A stretch of 64,000 nt of DNA from Heliocidaris erythrogramma (Eukaryota > Echinodermata > Echinoidea > Camarodonta > Echinometridae), in NCBI GenBank assembly GCA_025617745.1, contig CM046870.1, positions 5,027,285-5,091,284 of the forward strand. Direction: 5' to 3'. The notes beneath the pieces are model-generated. The model saw only the letters and a list, made by a program, of their open reading frames with translations, was not told the DNA's origin and did no database searches. Both the position numbers and the translations under genes were made by a program. Positions 3,601-45,100 of the stretch are shown piece after piece. Position 1 is the stretch's first letter. Every line of letters starts with the position of its first letter.

Positions 3601-3643
3601 CAAGTGACTATATAAGCCTGAAATGATTATACCGTCCGGCCGT

Positions 3644-3713: not shown

Positions 3714-3867
3714 ATTTCAGGCTTTATTTAAAAAAAAATATTATATATATACATATACATATATATAATATTGTGAAAGAAATTGCGAGAATAACGTTGC
3801 CTAGCTCAATCAAAGTTCCCCAGAGCTGTCCTCCCTTTTTGAAATTTTTGCAAAGGCTGAAAAAAAT

Positions 3868-8514: not shown

Positions 8515-8524
8515 GCAAGACAAG

Positions 8525-14232: not shown

Positions 14233-14259
14233 TCACATAGACATCGTTCCTTGGATGAA
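14233..14259 (-). CDS. Sorcin-like gene, last exon
   Basis: 27 nt after CACTAG: FIQGTMSM and a TGA stop. The eight residues match the end of grancalcin (FLQGTMAI). The 3'UTR probably extends into the AT-rich stretch below 14,233; no clear polyadenylation site was fixed. Confidence 0.9.
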   Translation of the reverse strand, partial: FIQGTMSM

Positions 14260-15140: not shown

Positions 15141-18100
15141 GTGTTCTAAAAAACATTGCAAAGGTGCTTAAATTTTCAAAAACGAATATAGTTGGTCTTC
15201 ATTCCCCTGAGAAAGATTTTAACATATTTATTTATTTGCAGTTTTATTTATACAGGGTAACAATGTCAGTTTCAGAACTGCTTTCCACAATGGCCCTGTC
15301 AGCATTTATTATGTAAATGACAATACTTAACCCTTCCTACTGGGGGGGGGGTCAATTTGACCCCCCCCTCGACATTTTGCGCGATAATTCTGCAACGCGC
15401 AATGATTTTGCCGCGCCATTTCATGACTTTTTTCTTTGAAGTCTCCCGCATATTTTGAGACCAAATTTGCGATGTCGGGTAGACCGTTCCGAAATTACAT
15501 AATGTTTTGTACATGGACGTCGGCCCCAAAACAGCTCAAATTTGTGATTTTGTGTGCAAATCCAATGCAAATTCTGTTTTGGGGTTAAATTGATATTAAT
15601 TAGATTATTTCAAATTTTAATCATTGAAATTAATTTATTCTAATGTAAATAAGCTTGAAAAACTGTCCCCAACAAATTTCGGCAAAAAAAACAATAGAAA
15701 ACAAAAGATCGAAAAAAACAATAAAATACATAAGAAATTAGCAAAAAATAATAAAAAACATAAGAAATTAATTTTGATTGTCGATTTTTTTTGCAAGGAA
15801 ATTGTTCAATGTGTCTTGAGGAATACTGACACAAAAAATTAGCGTTCTTTCAGCCTTTTTTACGGAGTTACAGGCAAAAACATAAATTCATGCATAAATT
15901 TGCATAATTAGTTAATTAGAACTAGAAAATCAATAATTTCCTTAAATTTAACTTTATAATCTTGTAGCTTACATCCGGCTCTATGTTCAGGCAAAATTTG
16001 CGCGCAATCGCGCGATCAGCGGCCGAGATCTGAAGGGGGGGTCAGATTGACCCCCCCCAGTAAAAACAGGGGGTCAAATAGCCCAGTTGGAATAGGGTTA
16101 AGATTGACATACAGAAAAAAGAATATAATTCCTTGTAAAAATTAGAAACAAAAAATATCATATTGCGCTAAAAAGAGAAAGAGATGGAGAAACAGAGAAA
16201 GGGAGAGAGGAAGAAGAGAGAGGGTGTGTGTGAGAGAGGAGAGAGAGAGAGAGAGAGAGAGATGGAGAAAGAAGAAGAGAGTAAGAGAAAAGAACTGAGA
16301 GAGGGGAGAATAAATGGAGACCAAAAATATGATAATGCATACAAATACTAAACATGAAATTAATTTTGGTTTTTCAAACTCATATTCTTTATATAATTTG
16401 ACTTTGGTATGATAATGTCAGTTTGATGCAAGGCATACTCTTCCTCATTTTTAATTTCTTTCTCAGAACTTAGACTTAGAATTGCCTTGAGGAACTGGGT
16501 GGATTTTCATTAAGTGTTTTGTCAGTGATTTTTACCGACAAATTTGCTCTCAGCCAATCAGATGCAAGGATTTCAGTAGCTTATAACAGTTGTCAGATAA
16601 AATAACTTCCTTTCAAGAAACACTCCCCAGGAATGATCTGGGGAGCGACTCATCAAGGGTTTTGTCAGCGATTTTTACCAACAACTGTTATAAGCTACTG
16701 AAATCCTCGCATCTGATAGGCTGAGAGCAAATTTGTTGGTAAAAATCTCAGACAAAACACTTGATGAAACGCTCCCCTGGTTCCCATAGAATTAGAAAAT
16801 GCAATAATCAACAGGTTCATAAAAGATCACAAGCCTTGGTGACCAGCTCTCCATACTGTACCTGTAAGGCCCCTGAGACGTACTGCGCAGGAAACAAAGG
16901 CATCGAAAGGGACATGTCCGTTGACTCCGTAACGCCTCAGTAGACATCCCATTGCCTGAGGAGATAACCTGTACCCTGCATAATCATGGGAAATCAAAAT
17001 CAACAAAATCTGTCATTTATATCAGTAATCATGGATGAATAAACCTAGAGATACTTCAGAAATGATTATTTTCTGGCATGCTCATAAAACTGGAGACAGA
17101 CTTCAGCTCGCCAGTACACATCTGAGCAAGGTATCTGAACCATAGACATCGTAACTGTCAGAGGTATATACCTCTCAAATGTGTCATGCAATTAATTCTT
17201 TTTAAATGAGGAAAGCAAGAAGCAATAATAATACAACAAAAAGGGAACAAGAGGAAGAAAAAAAGGAGCAGGGAAACACACAGAATGATAAAAACAAAAT
17301 GAGAGAAAGTGTTAGAAGAGGAGAAAAAGAGAAAACAAAGAAAAATAGGATGTAGAAGAAGAAGAAAAGTGAGAGTAAATAAAAGAGATCTGAAGAAGAT
17401 GATGAAGAAAAGAAGAAGAAAAAGGACAGAGGAGGAAAAAGAAGATAAGAGGGAAGAGGATATGAAGAAGAAGAAGAAGAAAGGGAAAACAAAAGAGAAA
17501 AAAATGAAAAAATACCTAATAGGAGAGAAGAAAAAGAAAGAGATGAGGAAAGAGAAAAAGAGGAAAGAGAAAAAGAGGAAGAAGAAAGAGCAGAGGATGA
17601 AAGAGACAACAAAAAGAGAAAACAAAGAAGAGAAGTGAAGAGAAGTGAAGAAGAAGAAAAAAAAACAAAGAGGAGGAAGCAGTATAGGACTAGAAAGAAA
17701 AAAAAACAATGAAGAAGTAGAAGCCATACCAAAAGCACCAAGTGCCCCAGCTAGCTCGTTGCCATCAATTAGACCTGACCTGTCTCGGTCATAGGTCGCG
17801 AAGGTCTGTTTCCACTGGTTGAGAACGGTCCAAAGTTCCTTGAATTCTGTGAATCCCATCTTTCCTGAGTAGTCACGCTGGAGGTAGAACTCGAGTCAAA
17901 GAAAGTTACACTGATGTCACATCATGAGAAGGTTACTATAAGTTGATAGGATTATAGGAGGGAGTATGGTGGTTTAGTGGGTGCTCCAACATATGCTCCA
18001 GCGACACTTGCTACAGACTTCATCTCATCAAAGATAATAATGGCCACGTATATAGCGCTCATATCCGTCACGCAGTGATGCTCATGGCGCTCAGACATTA

Positions 18101-21100
18101 TTACCCTGGTTATACCCAAGCCGCCAAAGTAACTAGCGCTCAAGCATATCAGGTACCCGTTTACACCTGGGTGGAGTGGTGGGATTCGAACCCCGTACCT
18201 TATGCTCTGCATTCCGGAGCCGGAAAAGTAAACAATTAAAGAGGCAATTTTTTTAATCGTGTACCTAAGGTATGCCAGTTGGGTTTCAAAATGGGGACCA
18301 TGGCCGATTCTGCCCTCCCCCCCCCCCCCCCCTGGATCCGCCCCTGCATGTAATATTTACATATATGTGCGTTACCCCTTTTGAGACAATTGATCACATT
18401 TTGTGGTTTGGCTCAATAACTTTTGATCAGAGCTCTAAAAATATACAAGATGCATGAGTAGAAAGAACAAAAAATTTCTGCACACACTGTGTCCATTTTT
18501 GTTGCATGACCATATTGCATTTGATGCCAGGTATTTAAAAAGGAGAATAAGCTTTAAAATCCTTAAATTGCCAACACACTGAGAGGTTCAAAATCATTGT
18601 TTTTCATCAAAATTGGCAATTTTTTCACCTTTTTGACTAAATTCCTTACCTATATTGTTTTCAAAGACATTACACCTTATTAGAACCATGTAGCACTAAA
18701 AGGGAAATTTTATTGTTGCCAATTTGAAGAACAAAATGTGATCAATTTAGCTTTAGCGTTAAATAATTCCAAGTCCTAAAAGGGTTAACAATGAGGAAAA
18801 TAATGTATCAAGTTCAAACTGAAGTACTGAGAAAGGATACATCCAGCATGTTGATCATCAGGATACACGTCTCAATGCTGAAAGCTGCAATAGAGATAAA
18901 CAAGAGTTGATACATTATGATCAAATGTATCATTCAGCATTTTGCCCATTGAGTTACATCATTTTCCAAATGTCTACACGTACATGTATAGGTATGAAGC
19001 ATCTTTGCCTCATATCCTGATCGGTTAAGAGTAGGCATTTTGTCTGTCTGTGGATTATAATTTTAGTAGAAGACCATGGCAAACAAATTTTATCAAATTT
19101 AAACCCCTTCAATGATGCCCTTCACGCTGAAACATAAAATAGCTCTCTGCAATGAAATACTTATTTTCTACAGGCCTTCAAACTTTCAAAATTTGTTAAA
19201 TAAAATGTCCATTCGTGACTAACCGATCAGGCTCCTCATTCAAGTTAATGATGAGTGTATTTTTCTGCGTACATGTACTACCAAGTAATACTCATTTTAT
19301 TCTTCCCCACTATCTGGCTAGTCTATTTATCAAATACAATTTAAAAAAGTGAATTCACAAAATCAGATTGAACTTTTAGTCCATGTAACTTTTTTAAGCA
19401 CCTGTGGTTATGCCCAGGAGGAGCTTTAGAAATATCAAAGATGAAAAAATAGGAAGGAAAAGAGAAATGAGAGGAAAAAGACAAGCATGAGGAAGCTCAA
19501 TCGCATGAAGAGGTGAGAACGAAATGAAGACAAGGAAGATAATTACGTTGATAAGTTCCCGAGATCCCAGATGAGGTCAGGCATTGTTGTAACTCCTTCT
19601 GATCAATCTGCTGATCCTGCAGGAATAAAATCAAGATTTCAAATTTACTGCCACTTGAGTGGAAATATGAACACACGCCCTCTATTGGCGATAAAGGGAA
19701 GGTTGAATTCTGGGAAAGGGAAAAAATAATTTGTGAGCTTTCTCATTCTTATTATATTAGTTTGGAAGATTATCATAGTAGATAGGTCCCTGAAAAGGAT
19801 TGCTCTTCAAATGCCTTCACATTGAAAATATGACAAGAAACAGTTGAAATGTTCAGGCCGAACAGTTGTGTGTAGTAATCCCATATACACATTTCTATGT
19901 GCAGTGCATGTGACTCTCAGCAGGATTGAGTCAATTTATCATTTTGCTGATTCCAAAACCTACAGCATACACTAATTGTTATGTGTTCTAATCAACCTTT
20001 CCCAATTGCTTTGAGACGGTTTCTTTCACAATTTTATCTCATGACAAAACTCAATTTTGTCTTTAAACATGGCAATATAAACTCACAACTGAATGCTAAG
20101 TCAATAATAGGCACTACCAATATAAATGTAAATATAATAATGAAAAATAACACTTTTTCCAAATTGTAAGAAGGGGGATTCCAGCTTCATTTTAAAAGTA
20201 TCACAATGTTGCAGAGTGTAATACATGTAATCTAAAATTTCTAAAGAAAAAAAAGAAGGTACAGTGTATGTACAGTCAGTGTTCTCGCCAGTATATGACA
20301 CCCTTGGTGTTGATACCAAGGGTGTGGAATTTCAGAAAATAAAAACCATGTGTAGATTCTCTCAACAAGGGTACCGACAAGGGTAATAAAGCAGTTAATG
20401 CCTACTTTCTATCTCCAAAGTCGTTTTGGTCCTCCCAAACCACCTCCCTGGGATGTCATAAGACCATATTTCACTCAATATGGACCAATAAATGTTTTGG
20501 TGCACACTTTCAACCTGCAAAGTTGCTCTGGGGAGCGTTTCATCAAGCGTTTTGTCAGTGATTTTACCGACAAATTTGCTCTCAGCCAATCAGATGCAAG
20601 GATTTCAGTAGCTTATAACAGTTGTCTGTAAAAATCACTGACAAAATGCTTGATGAAACGCTCCCCTGGTCAGATCACCCCCATGGGATTTGGTAAAGCC
20701 ATATTCCCATCAATTTGAACCATGTATGAACTTTTTTCTGCCGGGAAGCCTGTGTACAGTGACATTCAAAAGTTCAACTGCCAACCACAAATAAAGTATA
20801 AAAGACTGAAATCATTTCATTAAGGATTTCCCAGTGATTTCAAATGAAAACTCCACCACCGGACAACATAGTGCCCTCCATGGTGAACTACTACATGATG
20901 TACATCATCAAGGATTTCACAGCAGTTTCTAATGAAATAAATTAGCCACTAAAGTACAGAGTGCTGTCAATTCCAGAAGAAATGATGCATTTCATCAAGG
21001 ATTTCCTGTTGATTACCAGCAAAAATTGCAACATATGGGTACATTTCTGGTCATAATCATATCGCGTTAATTTACAACACCTACCAGTAACAAAAGTTAG

Positions 21101-24100
21101 TCCATAAGTAAGAATACAACATGAACATTTGTAAGCATTTAATATTACAATTTTGTTGCTAGTATAGTGGATAGTGAGAAGTTATCTACATGCATAATTT
21201 GCGCATATCAATTAACCAGGTTCAACACTTTCCATGCCGAGTCAATGAGGATAGCATGTCCATCTAACCATAGCGTATTGAGAGAAATACATGTGTATTG
21301 TAAGTAAACGAAGAAGCTTGACTGGGGAGGAATTTTTAATTTGTAAACAAATCTTTCGGCATATTACTCCCAGTGTTAAAGATCGTATGCTCGATCTATA
21401 ATGAAAAACACAAGTCAGAAAAAATTGGAACCAGCGGGATTCGAACCTGTCATCTACTGCTTGCCGGGCAGCGACCCAACCACCAGGCTATTCTGGTTCA
21501 CGGCCAAGTCACGACGAACTAGAATCAAATACCCAAGATCCTCTTCTTTCTGACTCATTAATATTCAAACGGTCCGCCGTGGAACAATGGTTAGTAAACG
21601 AAGAAGCTTGACTGGGGAGGAATTTTTAATTTGTAAACAAATCTTTCGGCATATTACTCCCAGTGTTAAAGATCGTATGCTCGATCTATAATGAAAAACA
21701 CAAGTCAGAAAAAATTGGAACCAGCGGGATTCGAACCTGTCATCTACTGCTTGCCGGGCAACGACCCAACCACCAGGCTATTCTGGTTCACGGCCAAGTC
21801 ACGACGAACTAGAATCAAATACCCAAGATCCTCTTCTTTCTGACTCATTAATATTCAAACGGTCCGCCGTGGAACAATGGTTAGTAAACGAAGAAGCTTG
21901 ACTGGGGAGGAATTTTTAATTTGTAAACAAATCTTTCGGCATATTACTCCCAGTGTTAAAGATCGTATGCTCGATCTATAATGAAAAACACAAGTCAGAA
22001 AAAATTGGAACCAGCGGGATTCGAACCTGTCATCTACTGCTTGCCGGGCAGCGACCCAACCACCAGGCTATTCTGGTTCACGGCCAAGTCACGACGAACT
22101 AGAATCAAATACCCAAGATCCTCTTCTTTCTGACTCATTAATATTCAAACGGTCCGCCGTGGAACAATGGTTAGTAAACGAAGAAGCTTGACTGGGGAGG
22201 AATTTTTAATTTGTAAACAAATCTTTCGGCATATTACTCCCAGTGTTAAAGATCGTATGCTCGATCTATAATGAAAAACACAAGTCAGAAAAAATTGGAA
22301 CCAGCGGGATTCGAACCTGTCATCTACTGCTTGCCGGGCAGCGACCCAACCACCAGGCTATTCTGGTTCACGGCCAAGTCACGACGAACTAGAATCAAAT
22401 ACCCAAGATCCTCTTCTTTCTGACTCATTAATATTCAAACGGTCCGCCGTGGAACAATGGTTAGTAAACGAAGAAGCTTGACTGGGGAGGAATTTTTAAT
22501 TTGTAAACAAATCTTTCGGCATATTACTCCCAGTGTTAAAGATCGTATGCTCGATCTATAATGAAAAACACAAGTCAGAAAAAATTGGAACCAGCGGGAT
22601 TCGAACCTGTCATCTACTGCTTGCCGGGCAGCGACCCAACCACCAGGCTATTCTGGTTCACGGCCAAGTCACGACGAACTAGAATCAAATACCCAAGATC
22701 CTCTTCTTTCTGACTCATTAATATTCAAACGGTCCGCCGTGGAACAATGGTTAGTAAACGAAGAAGCTTGACTGGGGAGGAATTTTTAATTTGTAAACAA
22801 ATCTTTCGGCATATTACTCCCAGTGTTAAAGATCGTATGCTCGATCTATAATGAAAAACACAAGTCAGAAAAAATTGGAACCAGCGGGATTCGAACCTGT
22901 CATCTACTGCTTGCCGGCAGCGACGCAACCACCAGGCTATTCTGGTTCACGGCCAAGTCACGACGAACTAGAATCAAATACCCAAGATCCTCTTCTTTCT
23001 GACTCATTAATATTCAAACGGTCCGCCGTGGAACAATGGTTAGTAAACGAAGAAGCTTGACTGGGGAGGAATTTTTAATTTGTAAACAAATCTTTCGGCA
23101 TATTACTCCCAGTGTACGAACTTTAACACTGGGAGTAATATGCCGAAAGATTTGTTTACAAATGTGTATTGTAGTTGGGACATGCGCAATACGCATACAC
23201 TAGTGCGGTCATAGGTGAAATACCATAACACTTGTCATCAATGACAAGTTGCAAAAACTGTTATAAGCTACTGAAATCCCTGCATCGATTGGCTGAGAGC
23301 AAATATGTCAGTAAAAATCACTGACAAGACACTTCATGTACTGCCCCTTTCTCTCCCACATACAATTTCTATAGGAGGGAAATGTTTGGAGCTCCAAAGA
23401 ATGACTGACAAATCAGGAGTGACTTCTAGTGACGTGACTACCTCTCTCAACTAGCTATGCTTCTAATAAATTTCATTGCTGTACATGGATACATGTGTAC
23501 ATGTACATGATTTTAAAGAGGATATCATCTTTTTTTTTTCTTCATAATGGGGAACAGGCTTGTATTGTGGACATTATTCTCTCAAAAGATATCTCATATT
23601 TAATTCAAATTATTAAATACAGGAACTGAAATTTAAAAATTCATTATTCAAGGGATAATTGTGATTTTACTTTGTAAACTTTAGTGGAACAGAAGGGGGC
23701 ATGTAATTTACTTAATTACTTCCCTGTTGAGTGCTCTCTATAATTACTTTTGGTCATGTAACTTGGATAATATTGCAAAATGAACAACTTTATCACAGAT
23801 TTATCCGAGTTAAATGCACATTGCAACTAATTAAATTAATGATGTAAAGAACAACTAAAATTCTGCCTTGTGCTGAAATACTGACATGTAGACCTAAAGT
23901 TCTGGCAATATGTTCCAAACCTTTGTTTAGGTACAGACAGATGTTTGGCCCTTATTGTGCCAACAGGTGTTCGATAACATATCAAAACTACATGTAACAT
24001 TTCATCAAGCAAATTTTCAATCATAGTGACTTTTTTGAAATCATGTTTCATCTTGCTAAAATATTGTTCCATGATATCTTCAAGAACACATTTCCAATTT

Positions 24101-27100: not shown

Positions 27101-30100
27101 CTGGGGCCTATTCCAAGGCTCGTATATATTATCACACAACAGAATCGACTCTCGGAACCGCGGAACCGCGGAACCGCCGGGCACGAGTAGTCGACTCTGG
27201 ACATCACGGAGTCGATTCCTCGGTTCTCGGAACGGGAGTCGAGTAAAATCGATTACTCGACTCTCGCTCCCTGTAGTGGCAAAATACTGTAGTTGAATGT
27301 CCATAATTTTGATATTCCATGACTTCCCATGACTTTTCAATGAAAAAAACAATTTTCCATGACTTTCAAGGCCTTAAAAGCAATAAAGTAAAATTCCATG
27401 ACTTTCCAGGTTTTCCATGACCCGTACGAACCCTGGCATAATCAGATTTCTTCAAATCCGCAATTTGGGGGCGACATTCCGTACTTCCGTAATGATGGTT
27501 AATTTCCGTACCAATTACGGAAAATCCGTACTAGTTGGCAGCTCTGTATCTATACTTCAACTGCAAAAAGAATTTTTTTAAGATAATTTAAAGCAGGGGG
27601 GAAGAAAAGAAAAAACATTAATGTAGAAGTTAGTTTACTGTCTGTTTTTTATGAAAACCGAAGCACACAATGTGTTTCACATTAAAAATTAAACTCTCCT
27701 AAGAGTACCAATTCCAAGTCCAAATATTTATAAGCCTTTGCATACTTTCATATCAATTGCTTCCTCCTAAAATAATAAAATCTGATTCTTATTACCAATC
27801 AAAACTGATAACTGACTTGACAAACATAATGACTGAAATAGAAAGTCGTAAGTAGGCTATTCAAGTATACTTACTGCACCAGCTACAGCTGAGAAGTATC
27901 CAAACAATGGATCCTAGAGAAGGATAAGAGATAAATAGAGAGAAAAATATGATAGTTAAATATAGCAATGACACATAAAAGAGAAAAAAATTGTTTACAT
28001 TTAAAGCCTGCGCAGTCGAAAGCAGATCAAGTACATGTAGATGAACATGAACATACAAACCTCGGGAGCGTTTCATCAAGCCTTTTGTCAGTGACTTTTA
28101 CTGACAAATGTGCTCTCAGCCAATCAGATGCAAGGATTTTAGTAGCTTCTAACAGTTGTCGGTAAAAATCACTGACAAAACGCTTGATGAAACGCTCCCC
28201 TGGCTTAACCCCCTCCTGGGTTATCATTTTGGGGGACAGTTGTCTTAAAAGAATTTTCAAGAGTGAAAATGTCACTTGAAATCCTATGTTTTATTGAGGA
28301 ATTGGGCATAAAATATCTTCCATGGATATGAACTTCCTTTTAAAGGTAACAGCCAATCCGCAGGTCCCCTAAAAGCGCGCTATTTTATTTCCAGTTCTGC
28401 CTGACTATGAATACATAATGAGCAAGAACAGCCAGGAACATCTCATTTGCAAACTATTGAATAGACTACTTATCATTCACCAATTGTCATGAGTTATACA
28501 TCAAATAAGAGCCCCAGGGGGCACGACGCTCACCTGAGGTGGATCAATTCACATCTGGTGCATGTTCTCTCTAGCACCACCAGGAGATATATTAGAAATT
28601 GAAACAACTAGGAGGATGTACATGAGATGATGTTAGAAATTAACATAATTCCCCCCCCCCCCCCCCCGCCTGGTTCTGGAGAAGAAGATGTTTGAAATTA
28701 CATAGCTTTTACAGTTGGGGACCCTCCCCCTGGACCCCCTGGGGGCCACATGTACTATTTTAGCAACTTTGGGTCCCCTACCCCTAAGGATGATTCCTAC
28801 CAAGTTTATTTAAATTCCGATCATGTGTTTTGGAGAAGATCTGAATGTACATTTTGCCTGGCAGCGCTCGCCCCCCCCCCCCCCCCCCCTCCAGTATGTT
28901 ACCCCCACAGGGCCCCTATAGGGCCACTCAGAGAAATTTCATGAACAACATTCATTCTTCATCTATAGAGGTATCTCCATACACAATACCAAGTCTGAGC
29001 TATGCTTGGTTCTGGAGAAGAAGATGTTTGAAATTTACATAGCTTTTACAATTGGGGGCCCTCTCCCTGGGCCCCCTTGGGGGCCACATGTACCATTTTA
29101 GCAAATTTGGGTCCCCTACCCCTAAGGATGATTCCTACGAAGTTTGGTTGAATTCCGATCATGTGATTTGGAGAAGAAGATCAGAATGTACATTTTGCCT
29201 GGCAGCGCCCCCCCCCCCCCCAGTATGTTACCCCCACAGGGCCCCTATAGGGCCACTCAGAGAAATTTCATGAACAACATTCATTCTTCATCTATAGAGG
29301 TATCTCTATACACAATACCAAGTCTGAGCTATGCCTGGTTCTGGAGAAGAAGATGTTTGAAATTTACATGGCTTTTACAATTGGGGGCCTTCCCCCTGGG
29401 CCCCCCTGGGGGCCACATGTACCATTTTAGCAACTTTGGTTCCCCTACCCCTAAGGATGATTCCTACCAAGTTTGGCTGAATTCCGATCATGTGTTTTGG
29501 AGAAGAAGATCAGAATGTACATTTTGCCTGGCAGCGCCTCCCCCCCCCCCCCCCCTCCAGTATGTTACCCCCACAGGGCCCCTATAGGGCCACTCAGAGA
29601 AATTTCATGAACAACATTCATTCTTCATCTATAGAGGTATCTCTATACACAATACCAAGTCTGAGCTATGCCTGGTTCTGGAGAAGAAGATGTTTGAAAT
29701 TTACATAGCTTTTACAATTGGGGGCCCTCCCCCTGGGCCCCCCTGGGGGCCACATCTACCATTTTAGCAACTTTGGGTCCCCTACCCCTAAGGATGATTC
29801 CTACCAAGTTTGGTTGAATTCCGATCATGGGTTTTGGAGAAGAAGATGAAAATGTAAAAAGTTAACGGACGACGCACGACGGACGACGCACGACGGACGA
29901 CGCACGACGGACGACGGACAAATTTCCATCGCAATAGCTCACTCGAGCCTTAGGCTCAGGTGAGCGAATAAAAGAAGAGGGATCAGAGATTTGTGACATG
30001 CTTTTATTGTGTTCAAAATAAAAGACGAAATTGGTAAAAAATGGTGTTCCTTTTATGACAAAAAATGGAAATGAAATGAAATATAAATCTGGCCAAAACT

Positions 30101-33100
30101 ACCATAGTTTTATTGTGAGCCAGGGCAAATTTGACATGAGCGTAAAGGGCATTTTCTGTACTTTCCAAAGATTGAAATAACATTAATGTGCACTTCATGA
30201 CAGGGTCAGGATCCAGCATTATGTAACCAATGTACACACTTTGTCTTTAAAAAAGTCAATTCCAGCATTCCGATTGGTTACCACCACGCAAGATGTTTTC
30301 TCACAGCCAGGCAACAGCTATGCGCATGTTTGCGCAAGGATGAAGCAACAGGTTGCGCATTGTTTCATTCAACGCGCACTTGGTTACAGATGGCTTGCTT
30401 GCCAATCACAGGGCTAAGATTCTATGGTCTTGACAACGGATAATCTGCGGCTGAATATTGCTGGATCCTGCGCTTCCATACATATGTGTCTTGATGGCGG
30501 CTCATATACTTTTTATATGTCTTTTAACAACTTGAAATCTTGTGAAAAAAAGGCTTTTGTATGACTATTTCATCAGTTATATTAAACAACTTATTTCTAA
30601 AATTCTGACTGAAACAAAATATCCCTGTGTTGGTAAACTATTCATTTATTTTTGCAGAAAGTCTAATGAGCATAGCATTAATATTTATTGAAGAACATAA
30701 CTTTAAAGATGACCATGCGATACAGCCGACTGGGTGCAGGGAGAGAGTCCATTTCGGGCACTGGAAATAAAATGTGTGATTTTTGCTCATTTGCATACGA
30801 CCTGCGGTCTGACTGGTAACTTATCCTGTTTTTTTTGGGGGGGGGAGGGAATTCTTGGTGAAAACAAATAGTTCAATGCTCAAACTTCTGGGCAGGATTT
30901 GCGAGCTTACAGCGCAGAAGAGGGTAACCAAGTTTATACAGCCGCAAATATTAACCTCCCCACATGTAATTGCAATCCTGTAATACTTATGAATTGTAAC
31001 TATGCAATTCATAATGGCTTGATATTCAATAATTCAATTCATAGTAACAATTCAATTCAATTCAGTATTTATTTCCAATTCATAAAAATGAACAAAGTCA
31101 TATACAGACAAATAAAAAGGAGAATTAAAACATGTCAATAAAACATGAACAAAGCAATCAAAAGTAATAGGAAAGGTAGAGTTGTTACATGGTTGAACAT
31201 AAATGATTGGAAAAGGGGCATGCACTAAAAAGCCAAGAAAAGGCTTGTATGAACGCACATGCCCAACGTGGATTGATGATTAAAATAATATTGCTACCAT
31301 GGATGCGGTAATTAAGTACAGTACCAAGTAATAATAATTAAAACAAAAACTAAAATACAATAAACCGAGAAAGTAAAACAGGACAAAATATATAAACACA
31401 CAACATACATATAGTCATCCTAACATAAATTAATAATTGCTAAGTAATTTCTTTTTGTATTGTCTTTTAAAAGTATTATTAAACTGTGTATTAATTCTGC
31501 CAAATTCCAAACTATTCCATAAAGTGGGGCCTGTATGTCGTATGGAATATTTAGATCTATCATTTGAGAAGGCCCACCTGTGAAATTGATTACGTGATCT
31601 GGTAAAATAATTGTGAATATTAGAGTTAATTGAGAACATGTTCATTAAATATGGCGATAGAAGTAAGTTGTTCTCTGTGTAATAAATATGATTTGAACCA
31701 ATTAAAAGACACCCCTCTTATACCGTAATATTGCAACTTGTTGAGTAATATATCATGAGAAAGCGAATCAAAAGCTTTGGAGAGATCCATGAAGACTCCT
31801 ATAACTTCTTTGCCGGCACTGAGTTCACTAATTATTCTATCATGAATTTCAATAACTGCCATTTCTGTAGAGTAATTTTGACGGAAGCCATATTGACTGT
31901 CATTGTGGTGTCGTAAAAAACAGTAGAGTCTATTAAAAACTAATTTCTCCAATATTTTGGAGAAACATGGTAAAATCGATATTGGGCGGTAGTTGGTAAA
32001 TTGATTCGGATTGTCCTTTTTAAAAACGGGAACAACTTTGGCTATTTTTAGTTTAGAGGGTACGAATCCAGTTGTGAGAGATGTGTTGAAAATATATAAA
32101 AGTGGATCTATAATAAAGGGCAAGACATATTTCACAACAGATGGATGAATGTTATCAAATCCACTACTTTTACTAGCTTTAAGTGATTTACCAATGTCTA
32201 ATATTTCTTTCTTTGTAACTGGTTTAAAGAACAAAGTATGTGAGAGTGGTTCATTCATATAAGAATGAAACGAATTACAATTGTCTTTATTTAAATCATT
32301 ACATGTACTTGATCCAACGTTGATAAAATATTGGTTAAAGTTTTCTGCAATTTCAAAATGATCACTAATATAACAGCCATTATATCAAAAAGTGGTTTCT
32401 TTTATCAAGATTGTTTTTCTGTTTTCCTAAAATATTGTTTATAAGTTTCCATGTTTTGTTTGAATTTGTTTTCATAGATTCAAACTTGATAAAATAATAT
32501 TTTTTCTTCTCTCGTCGTTGGAGAGTTGAAGTAACTTCATTACGTATCTTTTTATATCTATCATGATGAGCTTTAGTTGGGGAGTTTAAATACACCTTAT
32601 AATATTTATTTTTCTTTCTTATAAGCTTCAAAATATCAAGGTTAATCCATGGTTTTCTATTCTGTTGACGTTTACCGATATGTTTTGTGCTGATAGGTAA
32701 GTGTTTATTATACAGGTTAACGAATGTATCATAAAATATGTTGTACGCCCCCTCCGGGTGGCTCTGGAGACACACCTCTGACCAGTCCACGATTGAAAGA
32801 TCACCACATAGAGAATTAAGACCATCAGGAGATATTTTCCTGTATGAATGTGCTTTTTGTTTATCATTTATTAAAAAATCTGAAAAATGGGACAAATGGA
32901 AGATTGGAAAATGGTCAGAAATATCTGTTAAAAAGGCACCAGACAGAGGGGAACAACTAAAATCATTTGTAAATATGTTATTGATTATAGTAGATGATCT
33001 ATTATTGACACGTGTTGGTCTGTCTATAATGGGATAAAACCCGGATGAGATTACTTGGTTGACAAAATGAAGAATTTGTGTGTTTTCAGATTTTTTCAAC

Positions 33101-36100
33101 AAATCAATATTGAAGTCGCCCATGAAGAAAATACGTTTCTTGATTATGTAATTATCATTCATCAATGTATCAAAATATGAAGTAAATGAAGAAATGCTTG
33201 ATTTTGGTTGACGATATACATGTATATTCCCAACTACAACATTTCTTTCTGATTTGCACTCGATTTTCAAATGCATAAAGAATCAACACCTTCACACTGC
33301 CTTCACACTGCCGCGGCCACTAGGTCGATCAGCATGCAGGAATTTATAGCCTTCAATTGAGAAGGGAACATTAGAGGTTGAATTAATCCACGTTTCCGAT
33401 ATGCCAATCACCGAAAAACAAAATCTGATATTCGAAAGAAAACTGTGTATGTGATCAAAATTTTGAAATAAACTTCTTGCATTGAAGTGAATCATGCTAA
33501 AGTTTCCCGTTATAGAATGTTCAATTATTTCATTGAATTCAGAGGTCAAGTAGTATCTTGCATTGGTGGAGAAGGTATGTTCGTCCTGATCATTCCCAAC
33601 ATGATATTCGTCGTGCCCAGCATTACTACTTGTATTTGCATCAACAAATTCGCCTTTAGAACAAAATAATGACTGAAATTCCGAGTCATCAATTTCAACG
33701 AATGGCAAAGGGTGAGTAAAGTTGACGTTTGCAGAAAGTATATTAGTTACCTTGACATTTAAACTCGAGTCTGCTTTAGAATAATCATTCCACATTACAA
33801 TGACTAATGAGACGTACAAGACAATACAAAATATCCAGAAACTCAATAAGAAACACGTAAAATAATAAGGCCTAAAAGTTTGTTAAATTACTACCTTTTA
33901 TTGATAATAAAAGGGTCAAATAAATGAGTAAATTAGAAAAAATAACTTAAGGAGAGAAAGTGGAATGCATCAGCATTGTATAATTATTCATGTCACAAGT
34001 TTTCCAAGTCTTGTTTACAGCGGATAGTTCTGCGGATCGACTTTCCATTTGTGGTGGATATCAGGACTACGATTCGACCATCAGTACTACAGTCAAACCA
34101 AGGAGTTGATAACTCCTTGGTCAAATCTGCTATAGCAACTACATGTACCTATAGAGAAAGACCACCCTCTTTATAAAGATCACAGTTTTTGTTTCAATTC
34201 GAAGAAATAATTTGTGAGCTTTCTCATTCCATTCATGTCGTCTAGAGGAAAATCATAATAGAAATGTCCTCTAAAAAAAATTGCTCCTCAAATGCCGTTT
34301 GAAATATGATGAGAAATAGCTGAAGTGTTCGGCTGAACATTCATGCCACATGTGTGTGTGTACGGGGCATATACCCGTTTCTGTGAGAATTGCATGTAAT
34401 TTTCAGCGAGATTGGGTCAATTTCTTATCATTTTGCTGATTCCAAAACCTCGCAATATACACCAAACATTACATGTACATGTATACATGTATGTAGACAT
34501 AACCAACCTTTCCCAATCGCTTTGAGACAGGTTCTTTCACAAATGATATCCAGAACTCAACTTGATCTTTAATTTAGTAATTCTCATTGAAATGCGTCTT
34601 TTAGGAACCTGTACATAAAAACCATCTGCTCTAAAGACTGCTTTTCTTGTCTCCCTTGAGCGGTCTTTATATAGAGGTTTCACAGTATCTAGTCATTTGT
34701 AATCGACACTCTTTGAAGCCTCATTCACTGTATGAAGCTAAAAACCATTTTTTTTTAAACCCAAAGACATTCTAAATGAATGTCAAAAGGGGTAAAAAAA
34801 AAAAGTAGTAGTGCACAACAAAGGCCCCTAGCTAAGCGTCCTTAATTACATGTATCTGAGTGTGGAAAGATGCCACCCTATTTCACAGCACCATTCATAG
34901 TTTTCCCGCTATACCGAACAGAGAGTTGTCCGGTCCGAGAGTGACATTTCTACTTATTTCACCCCAAAAAGATGAATCGCTCTAAGTGACTCTTGTAGCA
35001 CCAAACCAAATCTTCATTAATTATTTGTGTGGCTATTCGCTAGTGCTGTCGACAAGCCTTCTGACGACAATCCTGTCGACAAAACCCTTTCTCGCTGTAA
35101 AACAACATGTCAACAAAGATTCTGATATTGGCGATATAATTACATTAATATTTAACTGTGAATTCCACATTAAATAGCCAATGGAATAAAGTCAACATTT
35201 GTCCACATTACAGAGTTATATGTTTGTTATTTTTCTAATACTTCTTTTTAGCTGTTTAAGGGTTTCTAGATTATTTTTATGTCTCACTTCATCGCTGACT
35301 GTGGTAGGCTCCCTGCAGCAACAGTTATTTGTTCTTGCGCATGAAATTTACTGATCATGTATTGTCGAAAACGGTCGACATTGGTCATAAATTGGTCATA
35401 AATTCGACCCATCATGTCCACAATATATATATCTACTCCAGTATTAACCCCCCCCCCCAAAAAAAAAAAGATGGCTTTCCAAGCTTGTTTGAAAACAAGT
35501 ACAATATTTCAAAAGGCTTCATTTTTAAAAGGCAATTGACTCACAATATCATACACACTACAGTATGTACATGTATCCAGGGAGAATTTTTGGGGAAAAA
35601 AGACACCCCAAAATGCTGATGACCATTTTCCCCCTTTTTTTGCTTGTCAGAAAATTGTCAGAAAGTTAGGCCCCTCCCTCACAAAATCCTGGATCCGTCA
35701 CTGCATGTATCACACATTGCTCCATCATGAAATCTTCAAATATCAATGTTTATTTTCCAACATGAACCAAGCATTCTCAATTTCTAGGAAACATTTATAA
35801 AGATAGCAAAAATATTTCTTGAAGAAATGCACATCTTCTAAAAACAAAGCTTTTTATCAGTGTTTACCTTGGAATGGAAAAAATAATAGTGGAAAAGAAA
35901 TTAAGGAGCTTAATCATAAGATCAAAGCTAAACTCATGGGCCCGTATGCTGAACTCTGGTTTAACTTAAACCATGGTCTAAATGTGTGGTTTAACTATGG
36001 GCAGCCAAATGTGACACAAACCTCTCTAACAGTAGATATTCAATTTATCAGCATTTTTGGTACTCAAACTTTTAACAACTGTGTGGAAATGATAAAGTAC

Positions 36101-39100
36101 AAAAGTTTTCTTGACCATTAAAGCTTGAGACCAGAATCCAGTAAACATAAAGAACATACAGTGCAAACAAAGTTTTGACATTTTAGGCTACCCATAGTTA
36201 AACTACAGATTTAAACCATGGTTTAATTATGTTAAACCGGAGTTCAGAATACGGGCCATGGTGTTTTCTGTTCTTATTTTACTCGTAAAATCACGAAAAA
36301 TTAAAATGAAAAATACCTTTTGAAAGGGCACTAGATTAGATTCATTTTTGACATTTTTTTTTTTCATGCAATGCTCGGGAAATCATACAAATGAAAATGA
36401 ATTATCTTAAATATTTTGTTAAAATCTCAAAATACATGTACATGTATGTAAATCACCTTGGCTCAGTAAACAATATTTCAGAAGTCAAAATTTCCTACCA
36501 ATGATGGAGCAGCTACAATTGGAGGGTAAGCGCCAAAGCCTGGAGCCACTACCGGTGCCACTACCGGTGGTACAGCCCCAATGACCGGTGCTACTACCTG
36601 TGGTACAGCCCCAATAAAAGAGTTAAACATATGATAAGAGAAAATAAGTACAGCCCCATTAAAAAGTTTAAAATGTTTCAGAAGTCAAAATTCCTAGCGT
36701 TAATGGAGCAGCTACAACTGGAGGAAGTGCCACAGCCTAGTGCCACAGCCTGGAGCCACTACCGGTGGTACATCCCAAATGACTGGTGCCACTAATGGTG
36801 CCACTAACAGTGGCACAGCTCCAATAAAAGAGTTAAAATAAGATAAGATGAAATAAGCACAGCCCCAGGAAAGAATTTTAAAAGTTTCAAACCTCAAAAT
36901 TTCCTACAACTGATGAAGCAGCTACAACTAGAGGGTAAGCACCAAAGCCTCGAGCCACAACCAGTGCTAATATCGGTGCTACCACTGGTGGTACAGCCCA
37001 AACAAACAGTTAAAAATAAGACAAGATTAAATGGGTACAGCCCCAGGAAGAGTTTTAAAAGTTTCAGAAATCAAAATTTCCTACCAATGATGGAGCAGCT
37101 ACAATTGGAGGGTAAGCGCCAAAGCCTGGAGCCACTACCGGTGCCACTACCGGTGGTACAGCCCCAATGACCGGTGCTACTACCTGTGGTACAGCCCCAA
37201 TAAAAGAGTTAAACATATGATAAGAGAAAATAAGTACAGCCCCATTAAAAAGTTTTAAATGTTTCAGAAATCAAAATTCCTAGCGTTAATGGAGCAGCTA
37301 CAACTGGAGGAAGTGCCACAGCCTAGTGCCACAGCCTGGAGCCACTACCGGTGGTACATCCCAAATGACTGGTGCCACTAATGGTGCCACTAACAGTGGC
37401 ACAGCTCCAATAAAAGAGTTAAAATAAGATAAGATGAAATAAGTACAGCCCCAGGAAAGAATTTTAAAAGTTTCAAACCTCAAAATTTCCTACAACTGAT
37501 GAAGCAGCTACAACTAGAGGGTAAGCACCAAAGCCTCAAGCCACAACCGGTGCTAATATCGGTGCTACCACTGGTGGTACAGCCCAAACAAACAGTTAAA
37601 AATAAGACAAGATTAAATGGGTACAGCCCCAGGAAGAGTTTTAAAAGTTTCAGAAATCAAAATTTCCTACCAATGATGGAGCAGCTACAATTGGAGGGTA
37701 AGCGCCAAAGCCTGGAGCCACTACCGGTGCCACTACCGGTGGTACAGCCCCAATGACCGGTGCTACTACCTGTGGTACAGCCCCAATAAAAGAGTTAAAC
37801 ATATGATAAGAGAAAATAAGTACAGCCCCATTAAAAAGTTTTAAATGTTTCAGAAGTCAAAATTCCTAGCGTTAATGGAGCAGCTACAACTGGAGGAAGT
37901 GCCACAGCCTAGTGCCACAGCCTGGAGCCACTACCGGTGGTACATCCCAAATGACTGGTGCCACTAATGGTGCCACTAACAGTGGCACAGCTCCAATAAA
38001 AGAGTTAAAATAAGATAAGATGAAATAAGTACAGCCCCAGGAAAGAATTTTAAAAGTTTCAAACCTCAAAATTTCCTACAACTGATGAAGCAGCTACAAC
38101 TGGAGGGTAAGCACCAAAGCCTCGAGCCACAACCGGTGCTAATATCGGTGCTACCACTGATGGTACAGCCCAAACAAACAGTTAAAAATAAGACAAGATT
38201 AAATGGGTACAGCCCCAGGAAGAGTTTTAAAAGTTTCAGAAATCAAAATTTCCTACCGCTGATGGAGCAGCTACAACTGGAGGAAGTGCCACAGCCTAGT
38301 GCCACAGCCTGGAGCCACTACCGGTGGTACATCCCAAATGACTGGTGCCACTAATGGTGCCACTAACAGTGGCACAGCTCCAATAAAAGAGTTAAAATAA
38401 GATAAGATGAAATAAGTACAGCCCCAGGAAAGAATTTTAAAAGTTTCAAACCTCAAAATTTCCTACAACTGATGAAGCAGCTACAACTAGAGGGTAAGCA
38501 CCAAAGCCTCGAGCCACAACCGGTGCTAATATCGGTGCTACCACTGGTGGTACAGCCCAAACAAACAGTTAAAAATAAGACAAGATTAAATGGGTACAGC
38601 CCCAGGAAGAGTTTTAAAAGTTTCAGAAATCAAAATTTCCTACCAATGATGGAGCAGCTACAATTGGAGGGTAAGCGCCAAAGCCTGGAGCCACTACCGG
38701 TGCCACTACCGGTGGTACAGCCCCAATGACCGGTGCTACTACCTGTGGTACAGCCCCAATAAAAGAGTTAAACATATGATAAGAGAAAATAAGTACAGCC
38801 CCATTAAAAAGTTTTAAATGTTTCAGAAGTCAAAATTCCTAGCGTTAATGGAGCAGCTACAACTGGAGGAAGTGCCACAGCCTAGTGCCACAGCCTGGAG
38901 CCACTACCGGTGGTACATCCCAAATGACTGGTGCCACTAATGGTGCCACTAACAGTGGCACAGCTCCAATAAAAGAGTTAAAATAAGATAAGATGAAATA
39001 AGTACAGCCCCAGGAAAGAATTTTAAAAGTTTCAAACCTCAAAATTTCCTACAACTGATGAAGCAGCTACAACTAGAGGGTAAGCACCAAAGCCTCGAGC

Positions 39101-42100
39101 CACAACCGGTGCTAATATCGGTGCTACCACTGGTGGTACAGCCCAAACAAACAGTTAAAAATAAGACAAGATTAAATGGGTACAGCCCCAGGAAGAGTTT
39201 TAAAAGTTTCAGAAATCAAAATTTCCTACCGCTGATGGAGCAGCTACTACTGGAGGGTAAGCACCAAAGCCTGGAGCCACTACTGGTGCTACTACCGGTG
39301 CTATTACCGGTGGTACAGCCCCATAGACTGGTGCCACTACCGGTGGAGGCACTGCTCCTACAACAGCTGGAGCAGCAGTCCCAGAGACCATCACAACTGC
39401 CGGCTGCTTAACGGCTTCAACCGCAGCGTCCATCACAGCTTTGTGTGACTTTAACATTCCGCTGAACATGCTATCCATGGTGAATCTAAATCTCTATCAA
39501 ATAAAGCTGATCACTCTTTTGAAGTTAATCTTCAAAGTGGCGCTGGATCCTACTGTCCATCTCCTTTTATTGACATGGTTGGTTTCAAATTTTTATTAAA
39601 AACATCACGTTTATCTTTTTGCACACAGCACCTTAAAAGAGGAAATGACATCAACGTTCATCCAGGGATGGAGACATTCTGGACACAATGAAACCACTAA
39701 ATGTGGGTTTTATTTCCTCATATATTCAGAATTCTACTTTCAATTCTATAATAATTGACATCAAAATATCATCCTGTTTGTCTTGTCAACGTGTCGTGGT
39801 CTAGTGGATGTGTCACTTAAATCTACATAGTACATGTACATTCCATTTGACACCCTTGACCCAAGTGTAGTACATGGAAACTGTTAACTGGTAGGAAGAA
39901 ACTCCTTGAATACTGCAGCTGATTGGCTGAAACTGACGTAACTATACACGTACATGTACATGTAGGCCTAGAGTTAAGAGAGACAGTTACACCACAGGAA
40001 GTTGCTCCTGATTGGTCAAGTCATTTCATAGAGCCCCAACAGGGCTCACATAATGTAATTCAGGTCCCCATTTACATGTACTTATATGTGAAATCGACAG
40101 TAATCAAAAAATCATATTTTGATAAGGTTATGTAGGAATTTCTTATAATGCCCAGAGTACTAGACAAAAAATAGAAATTGCCTAATTTGGGAATTTTCCT
40201 GGCTATAACAAAATTTGTGAAGGCTGAAACGCAGTTTACACATACATGTAACTCTTGCCGACTCGCAAACAGAAACAGCAGAAATACAGTGAGATAAAAC
40301 CCTTTAAAAGTGCACAAAGACAAGCTCACTTCAGCGTAGGGGTAAACCTGAGAACCCTATGACTATAATAATAATAATAATAACTAGAATTTAATTCGTC
40401 ATGAGGACGAATTAGGTGGTCTGTCTTTCAATTTGTATGATCATGATTGTAATCAGGGTGATCATAATGCTAAACTGAAGATAGGAAGTCAAGAATGCCA
40501 CGCATGGAGATGCTTCTTGAGGACAGGAATGTAGAAAAATGTGTGAAACGGTCATTGGAAGATGTGATGATGTTGATGATAATCATAATCATGATGATGA
40601 TCATTATATCATGACAGTGATGATGATAATGATGTTGATGATAATCATGATGATGATCATTATATCATGACAGTGATGATAATACTGATTTTGATGTTAA
40701 TCATCATCATCATCATCATGAATATCATGACAGTAATGATGATAATGATGTTGATGATAATCATCATCATGAATATCATCATGGCAGTGATGATGATAAT
40801 GATGTTGATGATAATCATTATATCATCATGACAGTAATGATGATAATGATGTTGATGATAATCATCATCATCATCATGAATATCATGACAGTGATGATGA
40901 TAATGATGTTGATGATAATCATGATGATGATATAATGATGATGATGGTGATGGTGATGATAATGGTGATGACCATGACTGCAATAACAGTGACCATGCCA
41001 AATATGAAACAGAAATGACATTTCGTTATGAAGATACGACCATAAGTTGATTTGTAGAAAATGGCGCCTAGATGACGTCACAATAATCTGATGACCTTGA
41101 AAAAGATGCGGGAACTTGACCTTATTAGGACTGATGACTAACGAAAATTTTAAGATAATTGACTAAGCCAATTTTGAGAAATTGTGATATCAAATAGGAC
41201 TAATGATATTGCAGGATAGCTTTAATACACGTCAGGGAATCAGATTTTCCATAGGGTTATACATAAACCACTGCACACTACTTTAAAATAGACATAACAC
41301 GCAAAATAAGGGAGTTTATTACTTGGTTTGTGATTGCTTATGTTATAATAGTCGAACAAGATGGTAAAATGAAAGGCAAAAAGAAGCCAAAAAAAAAAAA
41401 AAATTTTAGTGGACCCACCGGGGATCGAACCTGGGTCACCGGAATGAGAGGCAAGTGCTTTGACCAATATACCAAAACATTTCCCATAGAGATAACACGT
41501 AAACGAAAAAACGGGATTCTCAAATCCCATTTTGTAGTGAAAAATTGGGCATGATCCCGACATCTGATCAAAAATTGGAGACCACAATTATAAAAGCTTA
41601 TAGTCTCAGCTATAACATACTAAAATCTGGAAGAAAATAGACCAAAAACAACTGAGATACAGCTCAGAGAACAATGTCATGTAGATTCATGATTCGAAAA
41701 AAAATTATCTTCCATAGACATAACACGCAAATAGGGAAAATTCTGACATGACATCTTTAATTGAATGAAAAATGGTGGTGACTGATTTTGTAGGAAATTG
41801 CCTCAGCTACAACATATTAAAATCTGGGCGAAAAACGACCAATAATTACGAATCTAGAGCCAAATTTGCATAAATGTGATGACGTCAAAACATGAAAAAT
41901 GGAAATTTTGAATTCTGGCGCCATTTTGATGACGTTATAAGGTTTATAAGGGTCAAATGATATATGAAATAAAATCTATGATTCATACCCTACTTGATGA
42001 TGAAAAAAAATTGGGGGGTTTATGGACTATTTAAAGAGCTAGAGTTAATTTTGTAGAGGCATGTTTTTGCACGTTTTTACGTTATTTTCACCATAGACGC

Positions 42101-45100
42101 GCACACGGATTTTGAACTTTGACGCGCCCGTACGACCTTATTATTGATTGAAATTGATTCCAAGATGATTGAAATGAAGAAGAGAAGTGTCAGGATTGCA
42201 AATCAATCGAAAACGTTATTTACGACTTGCGCGCGCGTAAAACGCGCGCGCGGACGCTTACGCACAGAAATTTTTGAAATGCTCAAAATGACCTGAAACG
42301 TGTGCAGACTAGATCCTACGTGATTTTGAGCATTTTAAAAATTTGACGCGCGCGTACGCGCACGTCCTGACCTCTAGATGACCTGTGAGGACATGACTTG
42401 ATGACCCGTCAAGTGAAGTTTATGTGATGTGAATATGGTTGATTTTTGAAGATCGATTATGAAGATATAATCGATCTTGTAAATTTACAAAATGGCGTCT
42501 TGATGACGTCACGATGACATGATGACCTCCAAAAGCTTAATGGACCATGTCCATGATTGACCTCATACATGACATGAAATTCGATGATATTGACCTGGCC
42601 GATTTTGAGATTTGGTGGCCACAACAATTTGTTATAAAAATAAATAAATAAAAATAAAGAAGAAAATGCGGACAAAACTAATAGGTGATCTGTCGATACC
42701 GACAGACCACCTAATAATGTATTTATATAGCGCATTTTCCATATATTATGTTCAAATGCGCTTTCCAATGATAATAACGGAATAAGTGAGTTTTGAGGAG
42801 CTTTTTGAAGGCATCCAGAGATTTTGGGGTAGTTGATTCCACAGTTTGGGAGCAGCAGTTGAAAATGCTCTGTCACCATCTTGGGAGATGGATAGTTAAG
42901 CATGGTGCCTTGTGAGGAGCGGAGAGAGTACCGGGATGGTTGGCTGATAGTTATAAGTTCAGATAAATAAGGAGGGGCGAGACCGTGGATACATCGAAAG
43001 GTGAGTAGCAGAATCTTGAAGTGAATCCTTGACCTGATAGGTAACCAGTTCAGTTGACGGAGGATTGGTTTCATGTGAGAGAATTTGGGTAAACCTGTGG
43101 CAAGTCTGGCAGCTGCATTTTGAATACGCTGGAGTCTTTCAATGTGGGTAGCAGTGGCACCGTAGAGCAGACCATTACAGTAATCCAGGCGGCTGGTGAT
43201 GAAAGCATGGATGAGTGTGAGTAATGATCTCTGGTCCAGATACTTGCGAATTTTACGGATGTTGTGCAGATGGAAGAAGGCTGCCTTGCATGTCATCAGG
43301 ACATGTTGATTCATGTTCAGATTTGAATCAAACATGCAACCCAAGTTCTTAACGTGGCGTACAGGGACGATGTGTGGGATGTTGATCTTTTGCAGTTGCT
43401 GCCGTGTGCCAATGATGAGGAGCTCTGTCTTATCATCATTGATTAGCAATCTGTTCTTTATCATCCAAGCTCGAATATCGCTGAGACAGGACTCCATCAC
43501 TGCAACAGCTTCTCTTTCACTTGTATCACCATCAGGCTTGAACGAAAAGTAGAGCTGAGTGTCATCGGCGTAGCAGTGGGCACATGGGAGATATTTCTCA
43601 AGGACATCGAGGAGGTCTGATGTGTAGATAGAGAACAGTAGGGGCCCCAAACAGGATCCCTGAGGAACACCGCATTGCAGATTGAACTTCTCAGACTGGG
43701 AACCACGGATAATTACTCGCTGACTCCTACCAAGCAAGTATGATCGAAACCATTCCAGAGCACATCCAGAAAGACCGATCTTGGTTTGGAGACGTCTTAG
43801 GAGGGTTGCATGATCGACGGTGTCAAAGGCGGAGCTCAGGTCCAACAACACAAGGAGAGTAACCTGTTGTGAGTTCATATTGAGAAGAATGTCAGTCTTG
43901 ATTTTCAACAAAGCGGTTTCGGTACTGATTCTTCCTGTACGCAGACTGGAAGAGAGGAAAGAGAGCATAGTCGCCCATGTGAAGGTGAAGCTGGTCACAA
44001 ACAGCACTCTCTACCAGTTTGGATAAAAAGCTCAGATTGCTAACTGGGCGGTAGTTCTTGAAGTCACACTCCATTATATCTCTCTTCAACAGTGGCGTAA
44101 TAAGGGCCTCCTTCCAGTCTCTGATGAAAACTCCAGACTCGAGGGACAGGAAAACATAATTTACGTTCTTAAAACTTACAGAGGAGTGCTACCCGATTCG
44201 ATCTGGATTTCTTTAATCAATTTTTATGCTAATAACTTTTCTCCGCCTCACAAGAATGCATTGCCAGTGGATGAATTACTTACATGTGTGCCTAATACAT
44301 AAATTACACGTCTGTAGTTTCCTCTGTGATTTTGGGCCACTGTATTTTCTTCTGCAAAAATGTTTTCTTACTTTTACTAAAATAATTGCTAGACGATGAA
44401 AGTATGGTACAGTGAAACCTGTCTATAAAGACCACTCAAGGGAGACAAGAAAAGCAGTCTTTATGAGCAGGTGGTCTTTATGTACAGGTTCCTTAAATAC
44501 ATGTTTCAATGAGAAACACTTTTCAAGGGATACGAAAATTATGGTCTTTATAGACAGGTGGTCTTTCTATGCAGGTGGTCGCTAAAGCAGGTTTGACTGT
44601 AGTAGGAGTCAAAATAGATCTTTATGTTGCCTAGATGTAGAAATTTATCATGTCTGTTAACAAATTTTAGGTCTGGCTGGGCAGATATTTTTGGATCTTT
44701 AATTACACTGCATTTTCGCATAAATTCAAATACGATATTAGTAATCTACTGTTAGGGAATTTGAATGCTGACATCCAAATCTGTAGTATAAAATACTCAA
44801 ACAGTATATGCTACATACGGGACATCAGATGCCTAGCACAGGCAAACAAGACAACAGACCATGGAGGGAACAAATGGCAGCTCAAAGAACTAAACCCGAG
44901 AGCATACGCTTCTGCATGTCACTTTTGATAGATCGATTACTTGAAAAAAGGAAATATTCACACAATTATTTTTTCGCACTCACTGGAGTAAAACTAATTT
45001 CACGCTTTTAATTTTGCTGATGTCACTAGGCTCATGGGCACGAAAGTACATAAATAAAAACATTTGCATGCTTTTATTTTCCATGCCAATTTCATGTTTA

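Follow-up and report, generated by a model that had tools for sequence, protein, structure and literature searches.

A tandem array of candidate in-phase cassette exons in the first intron of a sorcin-like gene of Heliocidaris erythrogramma

Tandem duplicated exons are said to occur in about 10% of animal genes (2002 work cited in PMC9013439), and the cases most discussed in the citing text are exons that have diverged from one another and are spliced in a mutually exclusive manner. Another kind of array repeats exons together with introns, as in LPA KIV-2, where near-identical tandem units of exon plus intron, with subtypes in one array, measure 5.6 kb each and carry two exons of a folded domain, and where copy-number variation is documented (PMC11201333). 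Here we describe a gene on the minus strand of a 64,000-nucleotide stretch of Heliocidaris erythrogramma DNA (GCA_025617745.1, contig CM046870.1, positions 5,027,285 to 5,091,284 of the forward strand; hereafter the window), a sorcin-like penta-EF-hand gene whose first intron contains an array of 586-bp units, each with one 99-bp candidate exon that could lengthen the N-terminal tail of the protein. A third point of comparison is offered by satellite higher-order repeats, in which single monomers are very different from one another while the multi-monomer units differ little.

At the level of sequence, the locus resembles tandem exon duplication in having homologous neighboring candidate exons with usable-scoring splice sites in one gene, but what was copied is a fragment of a first exon with its donor and not a whole internal exon, and the four candidate exons are identical instead of diverged. 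A choice among them changes number only, not sequence. The diverged exons that mark mutually exclusive clusters are therefore absent here, and we ruled out mutually exclusive splicing as a source of variety for the same reason. Like LPA KIV-2, the array is built of near-identical units of exon and intron with subtypes among its repeats, and its four 586-bp units, each with a 99-bp candidate exon of phase 0 at both ends, keep the frame when whole units are gained or lost. Unlike LPA KIV-2, each unit holds a single candidate exon beside two copies that are unusable, what it would encode is a stretch of valine/proline/alanine-rich (V/P/A-rich) tail, and the array is known from one sequence. The monomer, in contrast to those of satellite higher-order repeats, comes from a coding exon within a gene. 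Tandem exon duplication and exon-bearing repeat arrays are already known; new, as far as our literature search shows, is the combination of a short higher-order unit, in which one copy of a first-exon fragment is intact and two are unusable, with complete identity of the intact copies. No sorcin gene with an array of tail exons was found among the PMC papers listed as matches.

The gene is complete, running from 39478 to 14233 in 8 coding exons with GT-AG at every internal border, and its coding sequence of 750 bp including the stop gives a product of 249 residues. Exon 1 (39230 to 39478; 249 bp, 83 codons) starts at an ATG in a strong context, CACCATGG, and has V/P/A-rich repeats in its 3' half, a parent-like copy of the array's repeat. 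It is followed by exon 2 (27875 to 27913; 39 bp, DPLFGYFSAVAGA), exon 3 with the first EF hand, EF1 (19547 to 19616; 70 bp), exon 4 (18841 to 18884; 44 bp), exon 5 with EF2 and EF3 (17730 to 17877; 148 bp), exon 6 with EF4 (16862 to 16975; 114 bp), exon 7 with EF5 (14900 to 14958; 59 bp), and exon 8 (14233 to 14259; 27 bp), all on the minus strand. The last of these was picked among 10 listed AG-TTY frames for its sorcin-like end, FIQGTMSM followed by the stop. Among PDB chains the product is best matched by human sorcin (phmmer, 1juo, E = 1.2e-67), with product residues 70-248 aligned to 1juo residues 17-197 and the whole EF-hand part covered. In a Pfam scan, PF00036 scored 43.2 bits against a cut-off of 25.4, and three of the five EF-hand families listed passed their cut-offs. 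In human sorcin E53, E94, and E124 are the glutamates of EF1-3 that are required for the Ca2+ response, and W105 and R135 are pocket residues (PMC12687447, PMC4649501); by hand count on the phmmer alignment, the product has the identical residue at all five places. Judged from these matches, the five-EF-hand region is homologous to sorcin along its length, and the predicted product is a sorcin-type penta-EF-hand protein.

The comparison extends to gene structure, since mouse Sri likewise has 8 exons and a last coding exon of 8 residues (PMC10502117), and the known isoforms of sorcin vary chiefly in N-terminal length (PMC4649501), which is also where the candidate tail exons lie. The tails themselves are different, V/P/A-rich and repetitive here but glycine/tyrosine-rich in sorcin, and the sea urchin gene has, unlike sorcin, a tandem array of additional candidate tail exons. 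An initial annotation of this DNA had placed exon 1 with its ATG at 39478-39230, had listed 27913, where exon 2 begins, among the junctions, and had put a repeated 586-bp unit in the first intron of a penta-EF-hand gene. All of its coordinates are correct on the minus strand, the 586-bp period is exact, and the gene is identified by the sorcin match. Overall, its observation is confirmed nearly in full and its interpretation is partly supported.

The array begins at the exon 1 donor and occupies 36499 to 39229, 2,731 bp in all, as four 586-bp units and one partial unit of 387 bp. It is composed of three diverged copies of the 3' end of exon 1, which we call C, B, and A (177, 210, and 199 bp), and the order along transcription after the exon 1 donor is C B A, C Bx, C B A, C B A, C B A, where Bx is a chimera of B and the exon 1 copy. 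Unit 1 (38644 to 39229) is followed by the partial unit of C plus Bx (38257 to 38643), which has no A exon, and then by unit 2 (37671 to 38256), which starts with an exon-1-type donor flank, unit 3 (37085 to 37670), and unit 4 (36499 to 37084). The initial annotation had four copies that keep the exon, and these stand, with the correction that the partial unit falls between the first and second 99-bp copies. Pairwise, the full units differ at 2 to 7 of 586 bases (98.8-99.7% identity), while the divergence among types A, B, and C is 13-19% for the flank and, for the exon-like part, 15-26%. Near-identical units made of diverged types indicate a higher-order repeat in which the monomers are old and the units young. 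With respect to the competing RNA structures by which mutually exclusive exons can be chosen, a single 586-nucleotide unit folded alone was no more stable than its shuffles (z = 0.00). The plus-strand, antisense frames of 96 to 139 residues that cross the array are regarded as a by-product of the repeat and its codon make-up. Other arrays lie nearby: a 337-bp repeat in the same intron (28668-29856, 3.6 copies, 93% matches), a 290-bp repeat in intron 2 (21303-23115, 6.3 copies, 99% matches), and, roughly 1.1 kb upstream of exon 1, a GAT-rich low-complexity array (40561-40971).

Each full unit ends in an A exon: copy 1 at 38644 to 38742, copy 2 at 37671 to 37769, copy 3 at 37085 to 37183, and copy 4 at 36499 to 36597. 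As the initial annotation had it, these are four 99-bp copies with a CAG acceptor, a GT donor, and phase 0 at both ends, and they are identical at 99 of 99 bases; each is open, preceded by CAG and followed by GTAGGA, and encodes the 33 residues VVAPVIGAVPPVVAPVVAPGFGAYPPIVAAPSL. Aligned by hand with the last 37 codons of exon 1 minus four codons, A differs at 11 bases in 33 codons, that is, 11 differences in 99 exon bases plus a 12-bp gap, whereas the gap placement of MAFFT gives 9 differences in 93 with 21 gap columns. At the homologous point exon 1 reads CCACCG where A reads CCACAG.

The siblings of A are in another state. In B, a 13-bp internal duplication sends the frame into a stop, there is no AG at the acceptor place, and the donor GT is replaced by CT in four of five copies, the exception being Bx. 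C is open in exon 1's frame in four of five copies (the copy at 37511 has a TGA), and its CAG is out of phase and would yield a 77-bp exon starting TGG TAG, so C may never have been an exon. The idea that the neighboring sub-repeats are decayed versions of the exon thus holds clearly for B but less so for C, and the birth and death of exons within one array is a fair description of A versus B, while for C the change could have run either way. Bx, with exon 1's donor, also presents an open 39-bp phase 0-0 candidate exon of its own (38257-38295, minus strand, summed score 9.85). Within A, in-phase CCG/GTAGTG donors (36553-36597 and the corresponding positions of the other three copies) would give exon forms of 33 or 45 bp.

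These features suggest the following history and use, a reading to which we give about even confidence. The 3' end of exon 1, with its donor and a short piece of intron, would have been duplicated in tandem, the copies would have diverged into three types, and unequal crossing-over would then have expanded the C-B-A triplet into the young higher-order repeat. A pyrimidine tract and an in-phase CAG precede the exon in type A, so that each copy would be a complete 99-bp cassette exon, and the pre-mRNA would most likely splice exon 1 to none, some, or all four of the A exons and then to exon 2. The result would be a graded set of tails of 83 to 215 residues followed by an unchanged five-EF-hand domain, with tail length altering Ca2+-dependent self-association or partner binding. 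Any number of copies would indeed keep the EF-hand frame, adding 0 to 132 residues as had been proposed, but with identical exons free inclusion gives only five different proteins, of 249, 282, 315, 348, and 381 residues.

The main competitor, which we take seriously but rate well short of even, is that the array is an intronic minisatellite that merely resembles exons, grown from exon 1 and removed with intron 1 in nearly all transcripts, with A spliced as a cryptic site at noise level. Array growth without a coding reason is plausible in a window rich in arrays, and the 290-bp and 337-bp arrays stand in introns of this same gene. An open frame and a donor phase would have been inherited with the copied piece of exon 1, leaving only the acceptor phase free (1 in 3), so the matching phase is weak evidence for a real exon. 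Drift often spares such a frame, since in 85% of simulations 8 random substitutions left a 78-bp piece of exon 1 open. Against this explanation, A is intact while B has its frameshift, has no acceptor AG, and lacks the donor GT in 4 of 5 copies, and the splice sites of A are within the range of those the gene uses and are almost unmatched by candidates in intron 1 outside the array.

The splice-site comparison can be made in numbers. The A acceptor scores 5.26, the 91.8 percentile of the 3,477 AG dinucleotides on the minus strand, and its donor 4.88, the 94.8 percentile of 3,477 GT; the gene's own 7 acceptors score 2.73 to 12.39 and its 7 donors -0.01 to 7.91, so that A is inside both ranges. 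Open phase 0-0 candidates of 30-300 bp that belong neither to the array nor to the true exons rarely match or beat the summed score of A: in intron 1 a single one of 249 does so, and across all introns 4 of 639. When all frame-0-open candidates outside the array are taken, true exons included, 42 of 2,016 reach that sum, or 7 of 699 in the symmetric subset. Both sites are at least as strong as A's in 13 of the 2,016, three of them true exons, and inside the array in the four A exons only.

Several points weigh on the other side. The scores use human site frequencies, applied to minus-strand AG and GT. Six of the gene's seven acceptors and five of its seven donors are stronger than those of A, including the exon 1 donor (6.85 versus 4.88), as the minisatellite explanation would have it, and the pyrimidine tract of A is broken by GGGG. 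The A exons rank 49th to 52nd of 2,148 frame-0-open candidates, below those true exons that are open in frame 0 (exons 2, 3, 7, and 5) and also below many decoys. A 141-bp candidate that occurs at five places in the array sums to 10.27 versus 10.15 for A, and the 33- and 45-bp forms of A that use its inner donors reach 9.74. With inner donors scoring this close, variation in tail length could also arise within a single A exon. New primate-specific exons are included on average in <10% of transcripts (PMC2592719). By these scores the A exons are credible, in the top few percent, and not beyond dispute.

Signs of coding constraint were sought in the divergence of the three types, and none of them amounts to proof of selection on A, a conclusion that we considered and rejected. 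In three-way counts of private changes, A has 2 across the 90 exon-like columns and 6 across the 83 columns of the flank, and B and C together have 20 and 10. The Fisher test of relative rates (A exon/flank versus B+C exon/flank) gives p = 0.050, but p = 0.10 when the acceptor columns are left out. The ratio of nonsynonymous to synonymous rates (dN/dS) against exon 1 is 0.62 for A and 0.50 for C; with C's ratio no higher than A's, the ratio is a poor argument for constraint on A. Replacements as few as those in A arose in 24% of neutral simulations (P = 0.24). The kinds of change differ, with Y to I, I to V, V to I, and A to L and no proline lost across the 33 codons of A aligned with exon 1, as compared with P to R, P to L, and P to S among the replacements in C, which has lost three prolines. 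Branch lengths may also mislead, because the array is a mosaic in which identical 85-bp flanks adjoin exons with 11 differences and a 12-bp gap. The direction of the relative-rate test favors a coding role for A, but its strength does not settle the matter, and the weakness of these tests is itself in keeping with a noncoding minisatellite.

If the A exons are used at all, they need not be used in varying number. Constitutive inclusion of all four would give a fixed long-tail protein of 381 residues and no graded series, which we consider unlikely. The copies share identical splice sites, and the intron before each, calculated from the coordinates, is 487 bp long except for one of 874 bp, which favors equal treatment, and identical exons offer no sequence ground for treating them unequally; but the A acceptor is weaker than six of the seven in the gene and the units are young. 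A further arrangement, in which an internal promoter would make each A copy an alternative first exon for a short-tail protein, starts from an in-frame ATG upstream of the CAG (MFNSFIGAVPQ...), with YHMFNSFIGAVPQVVAPV lying within the stop-to-stop frame of all four A copies. The context of this ATG is poor by eye, against the strong context of the exon 1 ATG, and we regard this arrangement as highly improbable.

The chimeric Bx records how the array may have grown. Upstream, through 13 shared bases, GTAGCTGCTCCAT, it is identical to each of the four B copies (133 of 133 bp); downstream, it matches the sequence that follows exon 1 at 551 of 553 bp. The crossover-like junction lies in the shared bases, which begin at 38274. 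A single unequal crossover within those 13 bases, with a B copy on one chromosome and exon 1 on its partner, would yield exactly the order observed, although gene conversion or misassembly could also produce the pattern. The 85 bp after exon 1 are identical to the 85 bp after A1, which likewise suggests that exon 1 and the array have exchanged sequence, and the simplest reading is that exon 1 is a fixed anchor against which the array grows and shrinks. It is also conceivable that the copy number is an artefact of assembly, from a shorter array or from two haplotypes misjoined, and units that are 98.8-99.7% identical, together with a partial unit that could stem from a misjoin, are what such an error might leave; however, pairwise differences at 2 to 7 of 586 bases mean that no unit is an exact duplicate of another, and Bx has a combination of flanks of its own, which together make this very unlikely. 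At the far end, the flank of A copy 4 departs from the repeat about 23 bp past the donor, and the 63 bp next in the exon 1 flank, in the one version tried, matched nothing else in the window convincingly; the best match was 13 bp, with 12 bp matched in exon 1. A itself may have arisen when a copy of exon 1 gained an acceptor, or it may descend from an older second tail exon, in which case the array expanded between that exon and exon 1.

If the cassettes do enter the mRNA, what they would add is a hydrophobic, V/P/A-rich segment (mean Kyte-Doolittle 1.51). We considered whether each would add a binding motif for penta-EF-hand proteins, and so valency, as PGFGAYPP occurs once per exon and resembles the ALG-2 type 2 and sorcin motifs. 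This was rejected, since the sorcin-binding motif (aromatic/Gly/Met-aromatic/Gly/Met-x-P) has no strict match in the 83 residues of exon 1 or in the cassette, where a G-x-Y-P look-alike (GAYP) occurs once each, and the ALG-2 motifs of type 1 (PPYPX4YP) and type 2 (PXPG[FW]), as defined in PMC4346919, have none in either. In human sorcin, a tail peptide, plausibly from a neighboring molecule in the crystal, occupies the Ca2+-exposed pocket, and the tail weakens calcium-free binding to PDCD6 and may drive oligomerization (PMC4649501), while aggregation with Ca2+ is reversible (PMC12687447). Longer tails would thus be expected to alter self-association and not to add known docking motifs, and by analogy this idea fits the published work on the sorcin tail (PMC4649501). 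A bolder extension, and an improbable one in our estimation, is that copy number differs between individuals, so that each haplotype would have its own ladder of tail lengths, 0 to n exons would tune self-association or the freeing of the Ca2+-exposed pocket, and crossing-over would shift the dose-response of a calcium switch while leaving the EF hands untouched.

Other features of the window include two reverse-transcriptase frames on the minus strand like those of long interspersed nuclear elements, one inside intron 1 (PF00078, E = 2.7e-17 in 31626-32384), whose adjoining minus-strand frame at 32380-33282 has no Pfam match, and one upstream of exon 1 (42457-44010; PF00078, E = 6.8e-24). Also on the minus strand are a 499-residue TRIM-like frame at 6274-7773 with a B-box zinc finger (PF00643, E = 9.9e-08) and, adjoining it, a Death domain frame at 8200-8547 (E = 8.5e-11). 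Transfer RNA genes for Asn (gtt; 3643-3714, plus strand) and Arg (tct; 3867-3937, minus strand) lie on opposite strands within 300 bp.

Should the A exons turn out to be unused, the locus is a caution that an intact frame and intact splice sites in a young array can be plain inheritance. If they are used, this one locus shows a half-copied exon gaining an acceptor, multiplying by unequal crossing-over, and leaving unusable siblings behind, with copy number, inclusion, and tail length all countable together. The sorcin tail is described as a likely self-ligand, in part blocking the binding of partners, and sorcin isoforms vary in tail length (PMC4649501), so 0 to 4 identical tail units on an otherwise unchanged protein would be a clean natural experiment.

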